Virus record (IMG/VR): IMGVR_UViG_3300035136_000041
Location: 1 to 63,198 of that record
Source of the DNA: a virus
Reading direction: 5' to 3' (one strand)
DNA length: 63,198 nt
The notes under the pieces were generated by a model. That model was not told the DNA's origin and searched no databases. It worked only from the letters and a program-made list of their open reading frames with translations. The position numbers and the translations under genes were made by a program. This document shows, one piece after another, positions 5,323 through 39,032 of the stretch. Each line of letters begins with the position of its first letter. Within the stretch, counting starts at the first letter, position 1.

Positions 5323-5796
5323 GTGGCTAAGAAGAAGATTGCCGAGCAGATCGATCCTGAAGACGATGAGCTCGAGGACTTGTCTGAAGACAGTGACGAT
5401 CCTGAAGACGATGAGCTCGAGGAGCTTGAGGATCTGGATGATGGGGAGCCTCGTGCGGAGTCTACTCCAATCCCGTCTGTGCCTGACAAAGCAGATTTAC
5501 TCAACGAAGGGTATTCTGAGGATGAAGCATCTGTCATCGTTAGTCACATGACTGCAATCCACGATGAGATTGTCGAGCTACGCAAGCCAAAGAATTTCGT
5601 TGTAAAGCCAGCTCTAAGGGTTTCCGCAAAGCATACAAAAGGCTTTTGGGTCTGCGGGAAGAAGCTGATGCCAGGCACGCCTTGGGAGGTTCCTATTGAT
5701 CTCCTAGACGAATCCAAGCTAGGAGAAATCAGGACGGTCGAGAAGGGCGGGCATGTCGCGGTCGAGGAGATTGAGCTGGAAGTGGAAGTCGAGTAG
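5323..5796 (+). CDS. Mu gp35-like protein with acidic N-terminus
   Basis: A 157-residue protein starting at GTG after AAGGAG. Residues 8-45 are extremely acidic, with two near-identical PEDDELE blocks. The C-terminal half (VVKPALRVSAKHTKGFWVCGKKLMPG) fits the Mu gp35 / HI1506-like N-terminal fold. It lies directly after gpT as in Mu and probably acts in head or neck assembly. The acidic block is a DNA-level repeat (GATCCTGAAGACGATGAG at 5356 and again near 5399). Confidence 0.65.
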   Translation: MAKKKIAEQIDPEDDELEDLSEDSDDPEDDELEELEDLDDGEPRAESTPIPSVPDKADLLNEGYSEDEASVIVSHMTAIHDEIVELRKPKNFVVKPALRVSAKHTKGFWVCGKKLMPGTPWEVPIDLLDESKLGEIRTVEKGGHVAVEEIELEVEVE

Positions 5797-5808
5797 TGAG
5801 GTGAGTCA

Positions 5809-6249
5809 GTGGCCTACGCAGTGCAGTCAGATCTTGAGAAGTATTTTGGGGAAGAGCAACTTCTGATTGCCGCCGACCGCGAGGGATCTGGCTCTTTGTC
5901 CGATCCTACCGTCGTTGAAGTTATCGAAGCTGGAATTACAGCCGCAGAGGAAGAGATCGACTCGTACTTAGCGGTACGTTACGATCTGCCCCTTGCTGCA
6001 ACTCCAGGAGTTCTCAAACGCGTCTGTTGCGATTTGGCCATGTATCACATGAGCACGAATCACCCGTCGATGTCTGAGGATAAGGAGACGCGTTACAACA
6101 ATGGTGTGAAATGGCTTGACAGATTGTCCAGAGGCGTGGTCTCGCTCGGCGTTGAAGAAGCCGAGGTGGTTGTTCAGGATGAGCCTGAGATTGCATCTAC
6201 TAGCGAGACTAGGATATTTTCCCGCACGAAATTGGCAGGGCTGCTATGA
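5809..6249 (+). CDS. gp36-like head completion protein (DUF1320)
   Basis: A 146-residue protein, GTG start. The MAYAVQSDLEKYFGE opening, the helical SYLAVRYDLPLAATPGVLKRVCCDLAMYHM core and ETRYNNGVKWLDRLSRG are characteristic of Mu gp36 (DUF1320), a neck or head-tail connector protein. Its ATGA overlap with gpG supports one operon. Confidence 0.85.
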   Translation: MAYAVQSDLEKYFGEEQLLIAADREGSGSLSDPTVVEVIEAGITAAEEEIDSYLAVRYDLPLAATPGVLKRVCCDLAMYHMSTNHPSMSEDKETRYNNGVKWLDRLSRGVVSLGVEEAEVVVQDEPEIASTSETRIFSRTKLAGLL

Positions 6250-28648: not shown

Positions 28649-29879
28649 CGACGATCTCCCCATCGCAAATCACGATCGAGCACCCAGCCCCATCGTCACT
28701 CACCCTCTCAAGCCAGATTTGAGCGTCGTGCTCCTCAGCCATCTGGGCCATGATCTTGAGACCCTCTTCATCAAGACGTGACCCATCACGTATACGTAGC
28801 ACGTTGAGCTTGGGGTTCATCGCCAATCCAATAGCCGTTGACACGCGCAATCGTTGACCATGGCTAGCTTGCTCGAACGGCACCTCATCGAAAGTCACCC
28901 CATCATCTGTAGCCGCGAGACCTTTGATTGGGTACTTGGCGTTTGCTGTTGCGTCGGCCTTCACCTCGTCGATCTGATGAATATAATTCGTCAGTCGATC
29001 CGATTCAGCCATCTGCTCTTTAAGCTCTGTCTCGAGACGGCGCCGTTCCTTCATGGATCGCACTGCGGCGTTTGTCTGCTCGGCGGTGGCAATCTTCTCG
29101 CGGATTTCGTCGAGGTCTTCATCGACAAGCGTCTTCACTTCGCCGGCTAGACGTTTGCCTTCGTCGGACGTGACCTTGAATTCTTCGCGAAGCTTAGCCA
29201 GCTTCTCCTCTGTCCGCTTGATTTCCTCGAGGAGACTTTTCGCGGTAGACCGCAACCCGTCGAGCATTTGCCGTTGCTCAGCGTTCGCCGCATTCACTTC
29301 CCTGCGGCGATCAATCTCCTTGGTGAGCTCGGCGACCGAGACTTCTTCATCCGGCACCTTGGCTCTTGGTGGCAGCTTCGAGATCGCCCCTTGTAGACGT
29401 TTGATCTCGCGCCCCACCTCGGTACGTTTATCGTATGCTTCCTTACGCTTCTCGTTCTCAGCGGTAAAGTCGAGCCCGACGAGCTTACGCAGAGTCTCAG
29501 CTTGCTTCTTCGGAGGCATGCGTTCGAACTCGAGGGGATCGAAGCTGATCGGTGAAGTGATCTCATCGAACAATTGTTGCGGTGATGTGATCCGCGAGCC
29601 ATCCTTCGCATCGACTTTGAGGTATTCACCTTTCTCTGTGATCGTCAGCCTCGCGACGAACTCATCTGTCTCCATAACGATATTGGATTTGTCGTCACCA
29701 TGACGGATTGGGTCGCGTGGTATGCGTTTCTTGCCGCCGAGAATAGCATCGATCGCAGATAGGACGCTTGTCTTCCCACTTCCATTGACCCCGCCAATGA
29801 CGACCAGAGATCCATCTGGTTCGATCTCGGCGGTCTTGATCTTCATGAATGACTTGATATCGAGTCTTGTAATTTTCAT
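28641..29879 (-). CDS. SbcC/Rad50-like ATPase
   Basis: A 412-residue protein; ATG 29879 overlaps the RecT stop (ATGA). Walker A is GGVNGSGKTS at about residue 31. A central coiled coil (residues 140-260, with LEEIKRTEEKLAKLREEF) is followed by an ABC-type signature region (ASHGQRLRVSTAIGLA) and a Walker-B-like LNVLRIRDGS with downstream WLERVSDDGAG. This small SMC-like ATPase accompanies RecT and a nuclease in many phages and likely works in recombination-linked DNA end processing. Confidence 0.85.
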   Translation of the reverse strand: MKITRLDIKSFMKIKTAEIEPDGSLVVIGGVNGSGKTSVLSAIDAILGGKKRIPRDPIRHGDDKSNIVMETDEFVARLTITEKGEYLKVDAKDGSRITSPQQLFDEITSPISFDPLEFERMPPKKQAETLRKLVGLDFTAENEKRKEAYDKRTEVGREIKRLQGAISKLPPRAKVPDEEVSVAELTKEIDRRREVNAANAEQRQMLDGLRSTAKSLLEEIKRTEEKLAKLREEFKVTSDEGKRLAGEVKTLVDEDLDEIREKIATAEQTNAAVRSMKERRRLETELKEQMAESDRLTNYIHQIDEVKADATANAKYPIKGLAATDDGVTFDEVPFEQASHGQRLRVSTAIGLAMNPKLNVLRIRDGSRLDEEGLKIMAQMAEEHDAQIWLERVSDDGAGCSIVICDGEIVDD

Positions 29880-30712
29880 CACCAATTAACCTCGTCTTCA
29901 TCAGTCGGCGTGGGCGGCTCGTCATCAGCGGGCTTTGACGGCTCTGTCTTCGGTGGTGGTCCCTTCGCTTTCTTGCCTACCTTCTGAACACCTTCTTTTG
30001 GTTCCGTCGTTGGTAAATCCAATTGTGCATCTTCGGTTTTATCAATGGGAGCCTCGGTGCTTTTGTCGCGCACGACCTTATGCAGCCCCTCGCGCAACTC
30101 GTCACCCCCCCCGTCCCAATGCGGAGTCACATTGACGATGTCACGTTCCTCTTCAACAACGCGCATACCGCGCAGTTTATCGGGAAAAGCATCGCGTAAT
30201 GCAAAAGCCCTAGCGCGCATCTGGAGCATACGCCATGGGTAATTGTTCCAAGTATTCTTTCCCCAAAGTCCAGCCGTTTTTGCATCATCTATTGTGAATG
30301 AACGTGTAACTGGCACCTTGCCACGACGCTTGGCTGTACAAGTAGCCTTGCCAGTCTTCTTGATCTCCTCGAAGTCATCCTCAATAATGTCTTCGCATTC
30401 CGGATCCGATTTGATGAGTGCCAACATCGCGTCACCCCACAGTGAGGGCCGCCCATTGATTACCGCGATGTTTTGGATCGCAGCCATCGGCGTAAGCCCC
30501 ACCTCAGCGCCCATTTGCATAGCCACGAGGATTGCACCTGGGTTGCCGACATAGTCTTTAGGGACCATTCCGCTATGGGCGATGATCTTGGCACACTCGA
30601 TAGCCTCTTGGAGATTACCCGGCCTCATCATACCAAATGAGTCCAGACCGACAGGCATCGCTTCACGTTTTTGCAGTGCCTTCTCTTCTTGTTTGGTTGG
30701 TTTGTCTGACAT
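29879..30712 (-). CDS. RecT-family single-strand annealing protein
   Basis: A 277-residue protein. ECAKIIAHSGMVPKDYVGNPGAILVAMQMGAEVGLTPMAAIQNIAVINGRPSLWGDAM is the RecT/Redbeta-type core. AGLWGKNTWNNYPWRMLQMRARAFALRDAFPD is also characteristic. The last 50 residues are Pro/Lys-rich and disordered. It anneals complementary strands, with the nuclease encoded next to it. Confidence 0.92.
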   Translation of the reverse strand: MSDKPTKQEEKALQKREAMPVGLDSFGMMRPGNLQEAIECAKIIAHSGMVPKDYVGNPGAILVAMQMGAEVGLTPMAAIQNIAVINGRPSLWGDAMLALIKSDPECEDIIEDDFEEIKKTGKATCTAKRRGKVPVTRSFTIDDAKTAGLWGKNTWNNYPWRMLQMRARAFALRDAFPDKLRGMRVVEEERDIVNVTPHWDGGGDELREGLHKVVRDKSTEAPIDKTEDAQLDLPTTEPKEGVQKVGKKAKGPPPKTEPSKPADDEPPTPTDEDEVNW

Positions 30713-30721
30713 GTGTGTCTC

Positions 30722-31801
30722 CTATGATTTGCTGACCTTGATTCGTGGCTTGGTGACCTTCTCCACGGCTCCGACTTCGCAAAGCCGCTCCAGTGTTTCC
30801 CTCATGTAAGCCGCCGCTTTGCCTTTGGGAGCTCTTCCTTTCAGGACTTCCTGCAACCCTGATTTAGTAATCTTGAGAGCGATATTAACCTCATCCTTGG
30901 TGAGTTTCAACTCTTCTCTGAGGATGCGCATGGCTTTTGACGGCCTGATATAGTCTTGTTCCTGTTGGTCGATCGTAATCTCTCTACCGTCTGAGGTCAC
31001 AACCGGCCCGCTGGCGATCATGGATTTGAGGACCTTATCATAATGCCGCAATGCTCTTCCTATAACACGCGAACGATCGTATAGGTCAGCAATGACTGTT
31101 GGTGTGATTGACGACTCATCATCGATTGCCTCCAAAGCCGTGATACCTGAGCGAGTCCACTCGTCCTTGGCTCGACAATTCATCTGTCTGGGACAGTACC
31201 GGCAGGCATCATAGCTCGGACCATACCGATTGGGGTCGGCCACTTGAGCGAGTAATTCATCGCGTAGCCTGTCGAGGTCTTCGTCGCGGAACTTGTGAAT
31301 GCGAACCTCGCCTATTCGTACCCAGACTTCGGCCCCTAGGATGTAACCACGATCTGGCATACCATGCATATCGCGTAGCAAATAGGCATAGCTGCGAATC
31401 TGATTTGGATGCTCTGATGGACTCCAACCGAACTTCCAGTCGAGCACCGCATGTCCTGCTACACTGACAAGATCTGATGTTCCTCGTAGAGTGACTTCGT
31501 CAGATAAATCAGCAGCCATATGGCATTCGCACTCAGCTTTTGGATACCACTTTGAAAGCCATTCCCAAGCCTCTTTAGCGCGCCTAGCCATACCGACAAG
31601 CACGTCTGGATCAACACCGTAGATGTCAGCCGCTTGGTCTATGGTGGCCCCAAATCCGGTTATTAACCGAGGCATGCACGCATGGCCAGCAGTGCCCTCG
31701 ATTGCTTCTGGATCGTTTGGCGAATACGGCGCGTCTGTTGGGATGAGACTTCCAGCACAGTGAAGTGCACGATCTGTCGAGCTGGATCTGACCGTTGTCA
31801 T
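30722..31801 (-). CDS. DUF2800 Cas4/RecB-like nuclease
   Basis: A 359-residue protein. It has the DUF2800 pattern: SSTDRALHCAGSLIPT start, EGTAGHACMPRL, LRGTSDLVSVAGHAVLDWKFGW (PD-(D/E)XK catalytic core D...DWK), then the CRYCPRQMNCRAKDEW Cys cluster for an Fe-S site. It probably resects DNA ends to load RecT. It overlaps the Tnp20-like gene by 4 bp. Confidence 0.88.
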   Translation of the reverse strand: MTTVRSSSTDRALHCAGSLIPTDAPYSPNDPEAIEGTAGHACMPRLITGFGATIDQAADIYGVDPDVLVGMARRAKEAWEWLSKWYPKAECECHMAADLSDEVTLRGTSDLVSVAGHAVLDWKFGWSPSEHPNQIRSYAYLLRDMHGMPDRGYILGAEVWVRIGEVRIHKFRDEDLDRLRDELLAQVADPNRYGPSYDACRYCPRQMNCRAKDEWTRSGITALEAIDDESSITPTVIADLYDRSRVIGRALRHYDKVLKSMIASGPVVTSDGREITIDQQEQDYIRPSKAMRILREELKLTKDEVNIALKITKSGLQEVLKGRAPKGKAAAYMRETLERLCEVGAVEKVTKPRIKVSKS

Positions 31802-32817
31802 GACGCGTCACCTTTCTTGCTCAGCGCTCTCCACGCTTTCCAAAGCCTACGGATCGCTTCCTTTTCCATACGTCGCTTTGCTCTGTTATGTGCATGTGCC
31901 TTCGTCATCTTTTCATTTCTCTCAAGCTCGTAAGCTTTCCGCGCATCATATATACGTCGGAATTCACCAGCATCTTCGCCCTTCCCCTGACCCTTTATCA
32001 GGCAATCACCAAGCGTCCACACAGCCGACCTCCTGGTTGGAGAGTACCCCATTTCAATCGCCAGCTCTTTATCCAATGTTTTGCACTGCCGCTTCCCCTT
32101 AATGACTGCCAATCCGAGTCGCTTCCAGACTTTAGCAGGATTCGCATACAGAGACAAGTCTCCTGTCTCACCAATGATGCATGCCAAATTTGTGTGCCCG
32201 AACCCTTTCACGGTGTCGACCCACGAGCAGACGGGGAGCTTGGCGGCAAGTTTTGTCATGTCGGCACGCAATCGTTTCTCGGAGCGGTTGATTGTATCGC
32301 GAGCTTGGAACATTGGCTTGCACCAGAGATAGGCCTTGGCAGCAACGGCGTGATGGTTAACACTGTTCTCATGGCCGCCAAGGCCTTCCTGGTTGGCGGC
32401 AACCGCGGAATGGTTAACATTGAGCTCCTGGCCGCCAGGATCCTTATGGATCGCACAGAGCTCTCTATACAGATCGTCTGCGCGTTTCAATCCGGCTTTG
32501 TCATTCTTGCCTTTGACATCGACAAATCGCCGACAAACGGCTTTGACGCGATTGGTAAGTGCGACCTGTATTCTTACGAGATCATTGCGTTGAGCCTTTA
32601 GCTCGCGCAACGTTTCACAGATAGATCCGAGCCCGTCGGCAACTACGGAATGGGCAACACTGCTCGTATGACCAACGGGCTCGGAAAGGTTTTCTGGTTG
32701 AGACATGGCTCGGCTGGTTTGCACTTCCTCAACGGTCTCGCCAGAATCTAGATTGTTTTGAGCAGACATGCTCTGCATGGTGTTCACCGTGTGCTTGGTC
32801 TTACTCAAAGCTTTCAT
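31798..32817 (-). CDS. IS110-family Tnp20-domain protein without DEDD domain
   Basis: A 339-residue protein starting at ATG 32817 after AGGAGAAAA. Residues 60-125 are a coiled coil. From about residue 165 it resembles the transposase_20 (Tnp20) half of IS110-family recombinases: CSWVDTVKGFGHTNLACIIGETGDL (helix-hairpin-helix), then KVWKRLGLAVIKG, and the C-terminal HAHNRAKRRMEKEAIRRLW helix. The N-terminal DEDD RuvC-like domain is missing, and the usual GLxP..SG catalytic-Ser region is altered (LAVIKGKRQC). Five RNA hairpins of the array at 32332-33135 lie inside its coding sequence. Likely a nucleic-acid-binding protein acting on that array; activity unknown. Confidence 0.7.
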   Translation of the reverse strand: MKALSKTKHTVNTMQSMSAQNNLDSGETVEEVQTSRAMSQPENLSEPVGHTSSVAHSVVADGLGSICETLRELKAQRNDLVRIQVALTNRVKAVCRRFVDVKGKNDKAGLKRADDLYRELCAIHKDPGGQELNVNHSAVAANQEGLGGHENSVNHHAVAAKAYLWCKPMFQARDTINRSEKRLRADMTKLAAKLPVCSWVDTVKGFGHTNLACIIGETGDLSLYANPAKVWKRLGLAVIKGKRQCKTLDKELAIEMGYSPTRRSAVWTLGDCLIKGQGKGEDAGEFRRIYDARKAYELERNEKMTKAHAHNRAKRRMEKEAIRRLWKAWRALSKKGDAS

Positions 32818-33135
32818 CTTTTTCTCCTAGGCTGAGGTTCTAGTGAGACATCATTGACATGGGTAACATTGATCTATAGGTCTCACCAGAAGCCCATTCA
32901 TCATACCACGAAGTTTTGGTGATTGCAATCTCCTAATGGGCATCACGTCAAGTTTGGCAATCACCAATTCATCAACCACCTGGTTCAACAACAGAACATC
33001 GGCGGGCATCACGACTGTGTTGGTCGTCGAGCCAGGCGGCAATCCTTCCTTGGTTTACACTGCCTTACTGACCGCCTAGCTCGACTGACTAATGCACCGC
33101 TACTGTGGGTTACATTCCCCGAGTGGCATTAGTCA
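32332..33135 (-). ncRNA. Array of ten RNA hairpins with 30-nt loops
   Basis: Ten stem-loops read on the minus strand, each with a 30-nt apical loop. Loop positions: H1 33125-33096, H2 33070-33041, H3 33022-32993, H4 32956-32927, H5 32879-32850, H6 32797-32768, H7 32734-32705, H8 32670-32641, H9 32430-32401, H10 32373-32344. Stems are 7-14 bp with unrelated sequences, for example H8 CCGAGCCCGTTGGT with GCCGACGGGCTCGG, and H2 TCGAGCTAGGCGGT with GCCGCCTGGCTCGA. Loop positions 11-21 fit RTGWWRMCCAT, with TG and CC invariant in all ten. Most loops start with CA. Nearly all imperfect pairs are G-U on the minus strand and would be A-C on the plus strand. H1-H5 precede the Tnp20-like gene; H6-H10 are inside it. 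Confidence 0.85.
32900..32928 (-). promoter_or_regulatory. Promoter for Tnp20-like gene inside the hairpin array
   Basis: On the minus strand TTGCAA (32928-32923), 17-bp spacer, TATGAT (32905-32900). The predicted start at about 32893 lies next to the first base of hairpin H5 (32891), so H5 would be the 5' end of the mRNA. The -35 overlaps the 3' arm of H4. Confidence 0.65.
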
Positions 33136-33632
33136 CATCTTGCCTCTTTCTTAAGGCGTTTTAAATCACCCTCCGTGAATACTGCACCAACTACTTTATT
33201 GTCCGGCATCTTATCTGCAATCAACGTGAGCCACTTCGCTCGTCGTCTTTTGCTGTCTGCAATACGGTTGTATAATGCAGCCGTAGCTACAACGTCACCC
33301 TTCATTGCGTGACCTAGTGGCAATCCATCGAGCAATCGAAAACCCATCAGCGAGTCAGCGGCGAATCGAAGTCGCGCCCCACATTGATCTTGTGCAGGTT
33401 CCGATTGGCGAACAGGTTTAGATGATTTCCCAGTTGGGGGGGTGGCAAAGTTCTCGATAGCCAGCTGGCATGCCTGCCTAAGGAACGGCTCGGTCAACAT
33501 CCGCCAGAGCAATTTGTCTTTGCGAGCTTCACTCTCGAGCCGATCAACGGCGTCTTGTTTAGTCTTGGTCCTCTTGATCGCAGTCGATATGTAACGCCGC
33601 AGATAGACTTCGTTCGCATCGTCTGTCGCCAT
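33129..33632 (-). CDS. Unknown 167-residue protein
   Basis: ATG 33632 follows AGGAGCG. The product is basic and helical: YLRRYISTAIKRTKTKQDAVDRLE, LWRMLTEPFLRQACQLAIENF, then GDVVATAALYNRIADSKRRRAKWL. First gene of the leftward block, so expressed early from the divergent promoter region. Its stop codon lies in the stem of hairpin H1. Not recognised. Confidence 0.7.
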   Translation of the reverse strand: MATDDANEVYLRRYISTAIKRTKTKQDAVDRLESEARKDKLLWRMLTEPFLRQACQLAIENFATPPTGKSSKPVRQSEPAQDQCGARLRFAADSLMGFRLLDGLPLGHAMKGDVVATAALYNRIADSKRRRAKWLTLIADKMPDNKVVGAVFTEGDLKRLKKEARCD

Positions 33633-33953
33633 GATCGCTCCTGAGCTGTAAAACTGCATGACTGGTGATCGCCGCTAGTAGCACCCAAGATCACCAGTCA
33701 GGCAGACCTACTGCCATTGGAATACGATGTACACTACAACTCCATTTTGGCTCCTCTCGTCTTTTTAAGTTTGTTTCATGCACTGTGACCTACCGCTCGC
33801 GAGATGTCAAGCACAAAATCTCTGTGTGAGGATTTCGTCTCGTAACATTTATATAGACGCTCACACTAGGCCGATCTACGCTCGCATCTTTTTTTTCAGG
33901 ACGCTTGACAAGCAGATTCGCATGTGTCTAAATATCGTCGACAGGAGGATGTT
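33633..33953. promoter_or_regulatory. Divergent early promoter region
   Basis: A 320-bp gap between divergent genes. On the plus strand TTGACA (33905-33910) with a 16-bp spacer and TCTAAA (33927-33932) drives the HTH gene. On the minus strand TTGACA (33810-33805) with a weak -10 (CACAGT) could drive the leftward block, and a shorter AAATC-N10-GATTT box (33816-33835) lies just upstream of it. A run of eight T at 33890-33897 precedes the plus promoter. Confidence 0.6.
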
Positions 33954-34178
33954 ATGAGTCTCGAAGATATGGGCGAGACAGTTAGGGTTGTCCGAATTAT
34001 GAAGGACATCTCAATCAGGGAAATAGCTCGCCGAGCAGAAACAAATCCCAACACAATCCTTAATCTCGAGAGCACCGGAGCAGTGACACTCAAGACGCTG
34101 CTCAAGGTGGCGAAGGCTCTGAAAATTAAGGCAAGCGACCTCACTCGCATCGCGGAGAAAAATCATGGAAAAGCGTAA
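33954..34178 (+). CDS. XRE-type HTH regulator
   Basis: A 74-residue protein; ATG 33954 follows AGGAGG. SIREIARRAETNPNTILNLESTG is a clear lambda-repressor-like HTH, and TLKTLLKVAKALKIKASDL is the usual fourth helix. Being single-domain and first in the rightward block, it resembles Cro-type regulators and may bind the divergent promoter region. Overlaps the ParB-like start. Confidence 0.85.
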   Translation: MSLEDMGETVRVVRIMKDISIREIARRAETNPNTILNLESTGAVTLKTLLKVAKALKIKASDLTRIAEKNHGKA

Positions 34179-35145
34179 GACGGCAATTGTCAACCCGAAG
34201 GATCTTATTCCTCCAAAGGGGCATGTGCTCAATGCTGATGTTGTAGATTCGATTGCCGAGTCGATCAGCAAGGTTGGACTTCTACAACCGATTGCCATAG
34301 TTGGACGTCACATCAAGTATGGTGTCCATCGTTGGGCTGCGGTGATGAAGCTCGGATACGAGGAGATAGAAGTGATTCGGGACAGAAAAGTTGAGACTGA
34401 CGACGAGCACGATGCGCAAGTTATCGTCGAGAATCTCTGTCGGCATCACTACAAGGGTCAAAAACTGGATGACATGCGCAAGCGGCTCGTAGATCTCTGG
34501 GAGCCTCAAATCGCCCAGGAGATGAAGATTTCGCAAAAAGACACAAATATTGCCAAACCACAAGATGATACCGGTGATGGGCAAAAACGATCGCCAGGGA
34601 GAAAAAAGACAGCCCGCGGCAAAGCCATCAAACAAGTAGCAAAACAAACTGGCACCACCGAGGGTGCCGTCAAAGAATCAGTGAGACGGGCAAAGGCCGC
34701 CGAAGCCGGCGTCACCCCCAAGCAGCCAGACGATCCACCACCGTTAGATGAGCCGGAGGTCACCGTCGACGACTACGGCACCGAGATCCCCGAGGGCGAG
34801 GTCGGCAGGTGGAACGAAGCTCGACAGCTGCTCGACGAGCTCGACAGCATCATGCGTGGAGTACAAATCAAGCTCGGCGAACTCGTCAAGATCAAGGGGA
34901 TGCCCTACTCGGTGGTGAGCGATCTCGACAAGCGTGCACAGCAATTCGCTGAGCTCGCTCAGAAGTACCATCCGGTGGCTCTATGCCTCGAGTGCAGCGG
35001 TACGGGCAAGAACCCAAACAACACCAACGGGTGCACTCATTGTGTGGGAGTCGGCTTCATCGCTGAGGTTAACTACAAAGCTCAGACGAAGCCAGCCACC
35101 GTCGAGGAGGAACCAACCTTCACCGAAGACGACCTGGACTGGTAG
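34165..35145 (+). CDS. ParB-like protein with C-terminal zinc knuckle
   Basis: A 326-residue protein. Residues 1-85 are a ParB/Srx-type N-terminal domain (VNPKDLIPPKGHV, SISKVGLLQPIAIVG, YGVHRWAAVMKLGYEEIEV). KAIKQVAKQTGTTEGAVKESVRRAKA is an HTH. A C-terminal CLECSGTGKNPNNTNGCTHC is a DnaJ-like zinc motif. No ParA gene is present, so a transcription or replication role is as likely as partition. Confidence 0.85.
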   Translation: MEKRKTAIVNPKDLIPPKGHVLNADVVDSIAESISKVGLLQPIAIVGRHIKYGVHRWAAVMKLGYEEIEVIRDRKVETDDEHDAQVIVENLCRHHYKGQKLDDMRKRLVDLWEPQIAQEMKISQKDTNIAKPQDDTGDGQKRSPGRKKTARGKAIKQVAKQTGTTEGAVKESVRRAKAAEAGVTPKQPDDPPPLDEPEVTVDDYGTEIPEGEVGRWNEARQLLDELDSIMRGVQIKLGELVKIKGMPYSVVSDLDKRAQQFAELAQKYHPVALCLECSGTGKNPNNTNGCTHCVGVGFIAEVNYKAQTKPATVEEEPTFTEDDLDW

Positions 35146-37838: not shown

Positions 37839-39032
37839 ATGGCCCTGAAGTTCCATTCCGCAGCCGATCTTTTCCCGTTGATGAGCGACGCCGATATCGA
37901 CAAGCTTGCCGAGGACATTCGAGAGCATGGACTCGTCGAGCCAATCGTCGTGCACAGAGACGATGGCTCGATCCTCGATGGGCGGAATCGCTATCTGGCC
38001 TGCAAGAAAGCGAAGGTGAAGCCAGATACTGAGCAATGGGATGGCCCCGCCGGCTCAGAAGTCACCTACGTTATCTCTCGCAATCTCCACCGACGCCACC
38101 TCAACGAGAGCCAGCGAGCCATGATCGCAGCCCGAGTCAAGTCGATGTTTGAGGCGGAGGCAAAGAAGCGGCAACTAGCCACACTGAAGCGGGGAAAAGA
38201 AGCACCAGCCCCCGTTAAGGAAAATTTACCTGAACGGGACAAGGGTCAGTCTCGAGATCACGCCGGCGAGATGTTCAAGGTCTCTGGGCGCTCGGTCGAC
38301 CACGCCGCAAAAATTCTTAAGAACGCGAGCCCGGAGCTCGTGCAGGCTGTAGACGATGGGACAGCTACGCTCGCTCAAGCCACCAAGCTCATGGGACAGG
38401 ATCACGACACCCAACGCAAGGTCATCTCACGAGCACGGGAGACCGGCAAGACTGCAACGGAAGCATACAGGGTCGTCAAGGCTGAGCACATTGCAAAGGC
38501 AGAGATGACAAAGCCAAGTGGCAAATACCGAGTCATCCTTGCTGACCCACCATGGTCCTACGGCAACAGCATGCCGCCCGGTACCACAGAGCCTCGCGAT
38601 CATTATCCGACGATGAGCCTTGAGGATATTTGCGCATTGCCAGTCAAAGACATGGCTCAAGACGATGCGGTGCTTTTTCTTTGGGTGACCTCCCCCCTTG
38701 TCCCGGAATCCATGCAAGTGATTGAGGCGTGGGGGTTCAAGTACAAAGCAAGCTTCGTTTGGGATAAAGTCAAGCACAACATGGGGCATTACAACTCAGT
38801 CCGCCACGAATTCTTGTGGATCTGCGTCAGAGGAAGCTGCCAACCAGACGTGCGAAAGCTATTTGATTCGGTGGTCGTCGAGGAGCGCACCGAGCATAGC
38901 AAAAAGCCAGAGCAATTCTACGAGATCATCGACACGCTCTATCCACAAGGCAAGCGCATAGAGCTCTTCGCTCGCGCAGCGCGAAAGGGTTGGCAACGGT
39001 GGGGATTTGAAGCGGGAGAATCAGATGCGTGA
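37839..39032 (+). CDS. ParB-domain / MT-A70 adenine methyltransferase fusion
   Basis: A 397-residue protein. Residues 1-100 are ParB/Srx-like (LMSDADIDKLAEDIREHGLVEPIVVHRDDGSILDGRNRYLACK). The middle has an HTH. From about 225 it is an MT-A70 N6-adenine methyltransferase: VILADPPWSYG (DPPW catalytic motif), LFLWVTSPLVPESMQVIEAWGFKYKASFVWDK, RHEFLWICVRG, KPEQFYEIIDTLYP. It probably methylates phage DNA with specificity from the ParB part. Preceded by a pseudoknot leader. Confidence 0.9.
   Translation: MALKFHSAADLFPLMSDADIDKLAEDIREHGLVEPIVVHRDDGSILDGRNRYLACKKAKVKPDTEQWDGPAGSEVTYVISRNLHRRHLNESQRAMIAARVKSMFEAEAKKRQLATLKRGKEAPAPVKENLPERDKGQSRDHAGEMFKVSGRSVDHAAKILKNASPELVQAVDDGTATLAQATKLMGQDHDTQRKVISRARETGKTATEAYRVVKAEHIAKAEMTKPSGKYRVILADPPWSYGNSMPPGTTEPRDHYPTMSLEDICALPVKDMAQDDAVLFLWVTSPLVPESMQVIEAWGFKYKASFVWDKVKHNMGHYNSVRHEFLWICVRGSCQPDVRKLFDSVVVEERTEHSKKPEQFYEIIDTLYPQGKRIELFARAARKGWQRWGFEAGESDA

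Follow-up and report, generated by a model that had tools for sequence, protein, structure and literature searches.

The TIGR-Tas systems described by Faure et al. (2025, PMC12045711) are built on 9-nucleotide (nt) spacers flanked by a box C (CCA) and a box D (UG). According to the main text of that report, two clades of Tas proteins carry stem-loop arrays whose stems are variable palindromes, and Tas is needed for maturation of the guide (tigRNA); it leaves as questions how spacers are gained or changed, what they target and how tigRNAs mature. In another guide RNA system, TnpB processes its own mRNA into omegaRNA (PMC10278001). Here we analyze a 63,198-nt stretch of viral DNA, IMG/VR record IMGVR_UViG_3300035136_000041 (the window, on which all window positions are numbered). 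On its minus strand, ten hairpins at 33135..32331, each with a loop of exactly 30 nt, run into the gene tas (31798..32817), which follows a Shine-Dalgarno sequence (AGGAG 5' of the ATG) and encodes TasA, a 339-residue protein with a Nop/Tnp20 RNA-binding domain. We consider it highly likely that the hairpins are a TIGR-type guide array of a nuclease-less TasA, which would use them for RNA-guided DNA binding against rival mobile elements, and that the tas mRNA doubles as guide precursor.

Architecture and strand of the hairpin array

Each unit reads stem-C-C(A)-N9-UG-N4-CC(A)-N9-UG-stem, so that the loop of 30 nt divides as 2+9+2+4+3+9+1 into box C, spacer A, box D, a 4-nt linker, box C, spacer B and box D. 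Spacers of 9+9 nt, box C as CC(A) and box D as UG are found in 10/10 units, with the third base of box C varying in a few. The exact regularity of the loops arises because the units follow the TIGR-Tas grammar of box C, spacer and box D, with variable palindromic sequence replacing the edge repeats. An earlier sequence-only reading of this DNA had correctly located all ten minus-strand inverted repeats and the 30 nt that they enclose, and the TG (loop positions 12-13) and CC (18-19) that it called invariant are present in every loop. Three further invariants (loop C1, loop T30 and a G opening the 3' arm) were absent from its list, and the layout that it proposed, an 11-nt core between segments of 10 and 9 nt, is more accurately described as two box C/9-nt spacer/box D sets joined by the linker.

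That the folded molecule is minus-strand RNA, as had been suggested, is borne out by stem scores that allow G-U pairs. These are higher on the minus than on the plus strand for H2 (14.0 versus 9), H8 (14.0 versus 9), H10 (12.5 versus 10) and H5 (12.0 versus 9) because of G-U pairing, and the H3 stem is lost on the plus strand. We then drew on relatives recovered by scans: a sister phage, L001, at 76% identity, phages and prophages of Rhizobiales, and 80 loci from IMG/VR. When candidates in 77 non-redundant related loci were selected on the loop motif only, 266 sense and 0 antisense candidates had a stem score of at least 7; a unit scan in which spacers were fixed at 9 nt and the linker had 4 or, in some cases, 7 or 8 nt returned 366 sense and 3 antisense units in 93 related loci. 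When a covariance model built from the units of the window and L001 was searched over 118 kb, the only hits at E < 0.3 were ten units of the window and six of L001's phage. Stems of 7 bp pair in 94.6% of cells, where shuffles give 62.2%; double-sided changes number 37, compared with 11.6 in shuffles, and the 821-nt array region folds with z = -6.1. The sequence-only reading had held that loss of the loops and core in relatives, or a lack of covariation, would speak against it; loops and boxes are kept, and the stems covary.

These features bear on the possibility that the hairpins have nothing to do with guides and act instead as sites in the DNA or as regulatory RNA (terminators, attenuators or operator repeats). 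Some hairpins do lie 5' of the tas start, and a separate conserved hairpin precedes the neighboring partner gene; however, 30-nt loops are unfit for terminators, the G-U pairs favor RNA, the spacers hypervary while boxes and stems stay, and the box grammar is that of TIGR. We regard this explanation as very improbable.

The loops start, on the minus strand, at 33125, 33070, 33022, 32956, 32879, 32797, 32734, 32670, 32430 and 32373. H1 (33086..33135, minus strand like all that follow) has the stem TGACTAATGC/GCATTAGTCA and presents guide A CTCGGGGAA and guide B CAGTAGCGG; H2 (33026..33085) has a 15-bp stem and guides GTAAGGCAG and AGGAAGGAT. An imperfect stem encloses the guides of H3 (32977..33038; ACACAGTCG and CCGATGTTC), whose loop box C is CCG. 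The 3' arm of H2 and the 5' arm of H3 share 33026-33038, so both hairpins cannot form fully together and they compete. H4 (32916..32967; guides AACTTGACG and TTAGGAGAT) has a perfect stem of 11 bp, and H5 (32838..32891; 12-bp stem, guides ATAGATCAA and TGTCAATGA) is the last unit 5' of tas. Within the tas open reading frame (ORF) lie H6 (32764..32801; guides AGCACACGG and TGCAGAGCA), which is orthologous to positions 6014-6051 of L001, H7 (32700..32739; guides TTGAGGAAG and GCCGAGCCA) and H8 (32626..32685; 15-bp stem, guides TACGAGCAG and TTCCGTAGT), the last of these encoding part of the N-terminal tail and having the same stem as its L001 counterpart with different spacers. H9 (32394..32437; guides GGAGCTCAA and TTCCGCGGT) falls in the loop joining two coiled-coil helices and H10 (32331..32386; 13-bp stem, guides TGAGAACAG and TCACGCCGT) at the coiled-coil tip.

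Tas protein, nested guide units and the partner gene

Profile searches with TasA matched TasR (9mty) at E 6.5e-24 and TasH at E 3e-6, and no IS110 chain was among the matches listed. An AlphaFold model (predicted local distance difference test score 81) is structurally closer to TasR and TasH (Z 16.0-16.1) than to IS621 (Z 13) or Nop5 (Z 8). In NCBIfam, the TIGR_Tas_endo model (NF052498) scores E 4e-25 and IS110 E 8e-9; against the IS110 equivalog, TasA reaches 35 bits where the cut-off is 140. Neither the Pfam search nor the predicted model contains a RuvC or HNH nuclease domain, which points to the TasA type of Tas protein. Judged by these profiles and the predicted fold, the neighbor of the array is a nuclease-less TIGR-Tas protein and not the IS110-type protein of the sequence-only reading. 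Its broader proposal, a multi-hairpin RNA whose variable flanks guide the adjoining Tnp20-domain protein, is supported in kind by the TIGR-Tas grammar and the Tas homology.

A weak Transposase_20 match in Pfam, together with the IS110 hit in NCBIfam and the structural kinship to IS621, might still be read as the remnant of a transposase with an IS110-type bridge RNA, the hairpins being donor and target loops of the recombinase. This is hard to reconcile with the absence, by Pfam and model, of the N-terminal DEDD/RuvC-like catalytic domain that is the hallmark of IS110, in place of which the first 60 residues of TasA are predicted to be disordered. TasR and TasH are also nearer in sequence and fold, and the array has ten units, each with a single loop and 9+9 spacers, where a bridge RNA would be one molecule with two internal loops. 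We give the bridge RNA explanation very little credence.

Five of the ten units, H6-H10, are in frame within the tas ORF, a feature that had been overlooked. Predicted disorder in TasA covers residues 1-60, encoded by H6-H8, and about 126-154, encoded by H9-H10; the latter two units specify a loop that joins two coiled-coil helices predicted with confidence, and at this place the other Tas proteins in the first alignment with TasA have a short turn. Units within the ORF occur in 49 of the 77 non-redundant relatives, with a maximum of ten per ORF. For units with a 4-nt linker, the three reading phases are used 83/0/58 times inside the ORF and 46/54/48 times outside it (2x3 chi-square p = 6e-15, an optimistic value because the units come from related loci). 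The 2,534 in-frame codons of in-ORF units contain no stop, compared with 56 and 103 stops in the other two frames, and 85 of 88 mapped units fall in the N-terminal tail, the coiled-coil tip or the C-terminal tail, which make up 27% of residues.

Could these units be untranslated, with the true tas start further downstream and the frame open by chance? In favor of this, the tails show low complexity and little conservation, and start codons were picked by a Shine-Dalgarno heuristic. Against this stand the position of H9 and H10 between confidently predicted helices, the lack of stops and the unused phase. Moreover, in 27 loci, of which 22 carry in-ORF units, the stop codon of the partner gene overlaps the upstream tas start by 4-17 nt, an arrangement that favors a start 5' of the units; the GenBank annotation of phage RHph_X2_25 has the long ORF. 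Untranslated units are therefore very unlikely, and the in-frame nesting suggests that one mRNA could be both message and guide precursor.

The partner gene (33129..33659, minus strand), directly 5' of tas, is conserved and encodes a 176-residue, all-helical protein. Such a protein of 160-200 residues precedes tas in 59 of 77 loci, and among 390 Rhizobiaceae genomes the gene is present only in those having tas, at one copy per tas. It matched no family in Pfam, PHROG, PADLOC or NCBIfam and gave no convincing fold. A hairpin lies 5' of the partner gene (CTGACTGGTGATC..GATCACCAGTCA, about 33664-33708, minus strand) and is kept in L001 with compensatory changes (GTGGTC/GACCAC); as it has no C/D boxes, it is perhaps a leader element.

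In the relatives, none of the other window genes recurs regularly near tas. On the 3' side (29879-31801, minus strand), a PD-(D/E)XK nuclease gene overlaps the tas stop and is followed by a weakly Bet-like recombination gene, which suggests an early recombination operon. Two ParB-like genes (34165-35145 and 37839-39032, both plus strand), one fused to an MT-A70 methyltransferase, are divergent from tas and so do not form the TasParB operon described in the main text of PMC12045711.

Spacer turnover, box D variants and target searches

Spacers are near maximal entropy. Alignment of 52 pairs of related loci gives an identity of 34% for spacer A and 38% for spacer B, compared with 78% for stems, 89% for boxes and 70% for the tas coding sequence. 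Two loci with Tas proteins 96% identical (L006 and L007) have in common the stem GCAGATGGGY/GCCCATCTGC around different spacers, and another pair (L053 and L059) has a common unit differing in spacer A alone. Persistent stems and boxes with differing spacers indicate, from these alignments, that arrays change not only through addition of whole units but also through substitution of spacers at their existing positions, in at least one case of a single spacer. Apart from one pair of true orthologs and a single match that is likely due to chance, we found no re-use of spacers between arrays.

One large group of loci has UG as box D and another has CG, and the box changes three times on the tree. 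Of 257 units in which both copies are either UG or CG, 207 have the same form in both. Lone UG/UG units stand within otherwise CG/CG arrays in L013 (position 3286), L014 (about 4600) and L026, so both copies of a unit appear to switch together. At about residues 221-222 of Tas (window numbering), UG-box loci have DL[SNAT] and CG-box loci D[IV]G, a difference that tracks the box through two phylogenetically separate switches (L083 and L086) with L069 as an exception; given that exception, the motif is a lead only to a possible determinant of box D specificity. A different layout is seen in Microcystis phage Mvi-JY20, where an unannotated, classical dual-repeat TIGR array (ATGCGAGCC / ACGAAACCC, 9-nt spacers; L004, about 5535-5860) lies directly 3' of tas.

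Target searches compared guides with shuffled partners, and both target geometries were tried with the sets of 328 and 340 guides described below. No window or L001 guide has a self-match at 0-1 mismatch in its own or the sister genome. This, and a spacer turnover so rapid that it fits changing foreign targets, argues against regulation by TasA of the phage's own genes, an idea to which the position of tas beside regulators and early genes lends some weight and which we consider unlikely. A guide common to Brucella and Ochrobactrum prophages has a single exact match (2-nt gap) in the 390 genomes, at L107 1501-1520 (G149:C3:117051-117070). The matched site belongs to a phage repressor gene of the S24/LexA type and immediately precedes the VQGDSM motif. 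The match is consistent with prophage competition, yet within chance; with about 0.17 matches expected by chance and no further repressor match, we keep it as a lead only.

Several results weigh against the TIGR-TasA guide array that we favor, in addition to the optimistic phase statistic. Among the collected loci, 305 guides showed no excess of targets over shuffled controls; nor did 328 guides (74 from Rhizobiales) against 60 twenty-kb Rhizobiaceae repressor regions, or 340 guides against L001's phage, parts of two other phages and host flanks. Five window guides had 0-1 exact matches each in IMG/VR, in unrelated genes and without clustering. TasA scores 89 bits where the cut-off of NF052498 is 100. 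Finally, the stems of 7-14 bp noted earlier are strong in eight units, but those of H6 (4 bp) and H7 (5 bp) are weak.

Proposed mechanism and relation to known systems

We propose that a minus-strand transcript would carry all ten units, each hairpin presenting two 9-nt spacers, each between a box C and a box D. By homology to TasR and TasH, a Tas dimer may bind the two box C/D pairs of a unit, and each spacer may base-pair with a different strand of an 18-bp site in DNA, 5'-A-(0-2 nt)-rc(B)-3', where rc is the reverse complement; this order derives from the 3' overhangs reported in the main text of PMC12045711. Lacking a nuclease domain, TasA would bind, bend or block DNA rather than cut it, probably in rival mobile elements. 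In this lineage the same mRNA would serve as message and guide precursor. Given the nesting and the published requirement for Tas in tigRNA maturation, excision of hairpins would consume tas mRNA and could produce negative feedback.

More tentatively, and with clearly less than even confidence, we suggest that this clade has overprinted its array on the coding sequence of its own effector protein, with up to ten in-frame hairpins encoding disordered tails or a coiled-coil tip loop. Each mRNA would be either translated or cut into guides, setting guide-to-protein stoichiometry and feedback; spacers would be exchanged singly, in place, within fixed stems, and the dedicated partner would act in guide maturation or spacer exchange. 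For the questions left by the 2025 description, the roughly 80 phage loci offer three handles: orthologous units with lasting stems and single swapped 9-nt spacers, a previously unnoticed partner gene linked to tas, and guides lying within the effector ORF, so that message and guide precursor are the same RNA.

Several known systems resemble the one described here. Box C/D small nucleolar ribonucleoproteins have a Nop fold and C/D-bounded guide pairs too, but the units here carry CCA/UG boxes and no RUGAUGA box C; they lack the kink-turn-forming RUGAUGA/CUGA boxes and had no Rfam match. IS110/IS621 bridge RNA systems have a related RNA-binding fold and split guides; here, in contrast, there is no DEDD domain, no transposon ends were seen, and an array takes the place of one bridge RNA. 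TIGR-TasR and TasH dual-repeat arrays have 9-nt spacers, UG/CCA boxes and a homologous Nop domain, but differ in their RuvC or HNH domain and in having edge repeats where the window has stems. For guides nested in an effector gene, the nearest precedent known to us is TnpB omegaRNA (PMC10278001), likewise processed from the effector's own mRNA, as is predicted here; TnpB has one guide per gene, whereas here several in-frame guide units occupy an ORF.

The sequence-only reading knew of no described family with this layout; such a family had, in kind, been described in 2025. The TIGR-TasA stem-loop arrays in the main text of PMC12045711, among them one on a Peromyscus leucopus gut contig, combine a Nop-domain protein that lacks a nuclease with palindromic stems of variable sequence; each hairpin holds two short spacers, set between box C and box D, and many units lie beside tas. 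Relative to them, the system here has units also in frame within tas, a constant 4-nt linker (7-8 nt in some relatives), a conserved partner gene and, in one clade, CG as box D; that main text mentions none of these four. What is new beyond it comprises the in-frame units, the in-place spacer swaps, the partner gene and the division of box D into UG and CG by clade.
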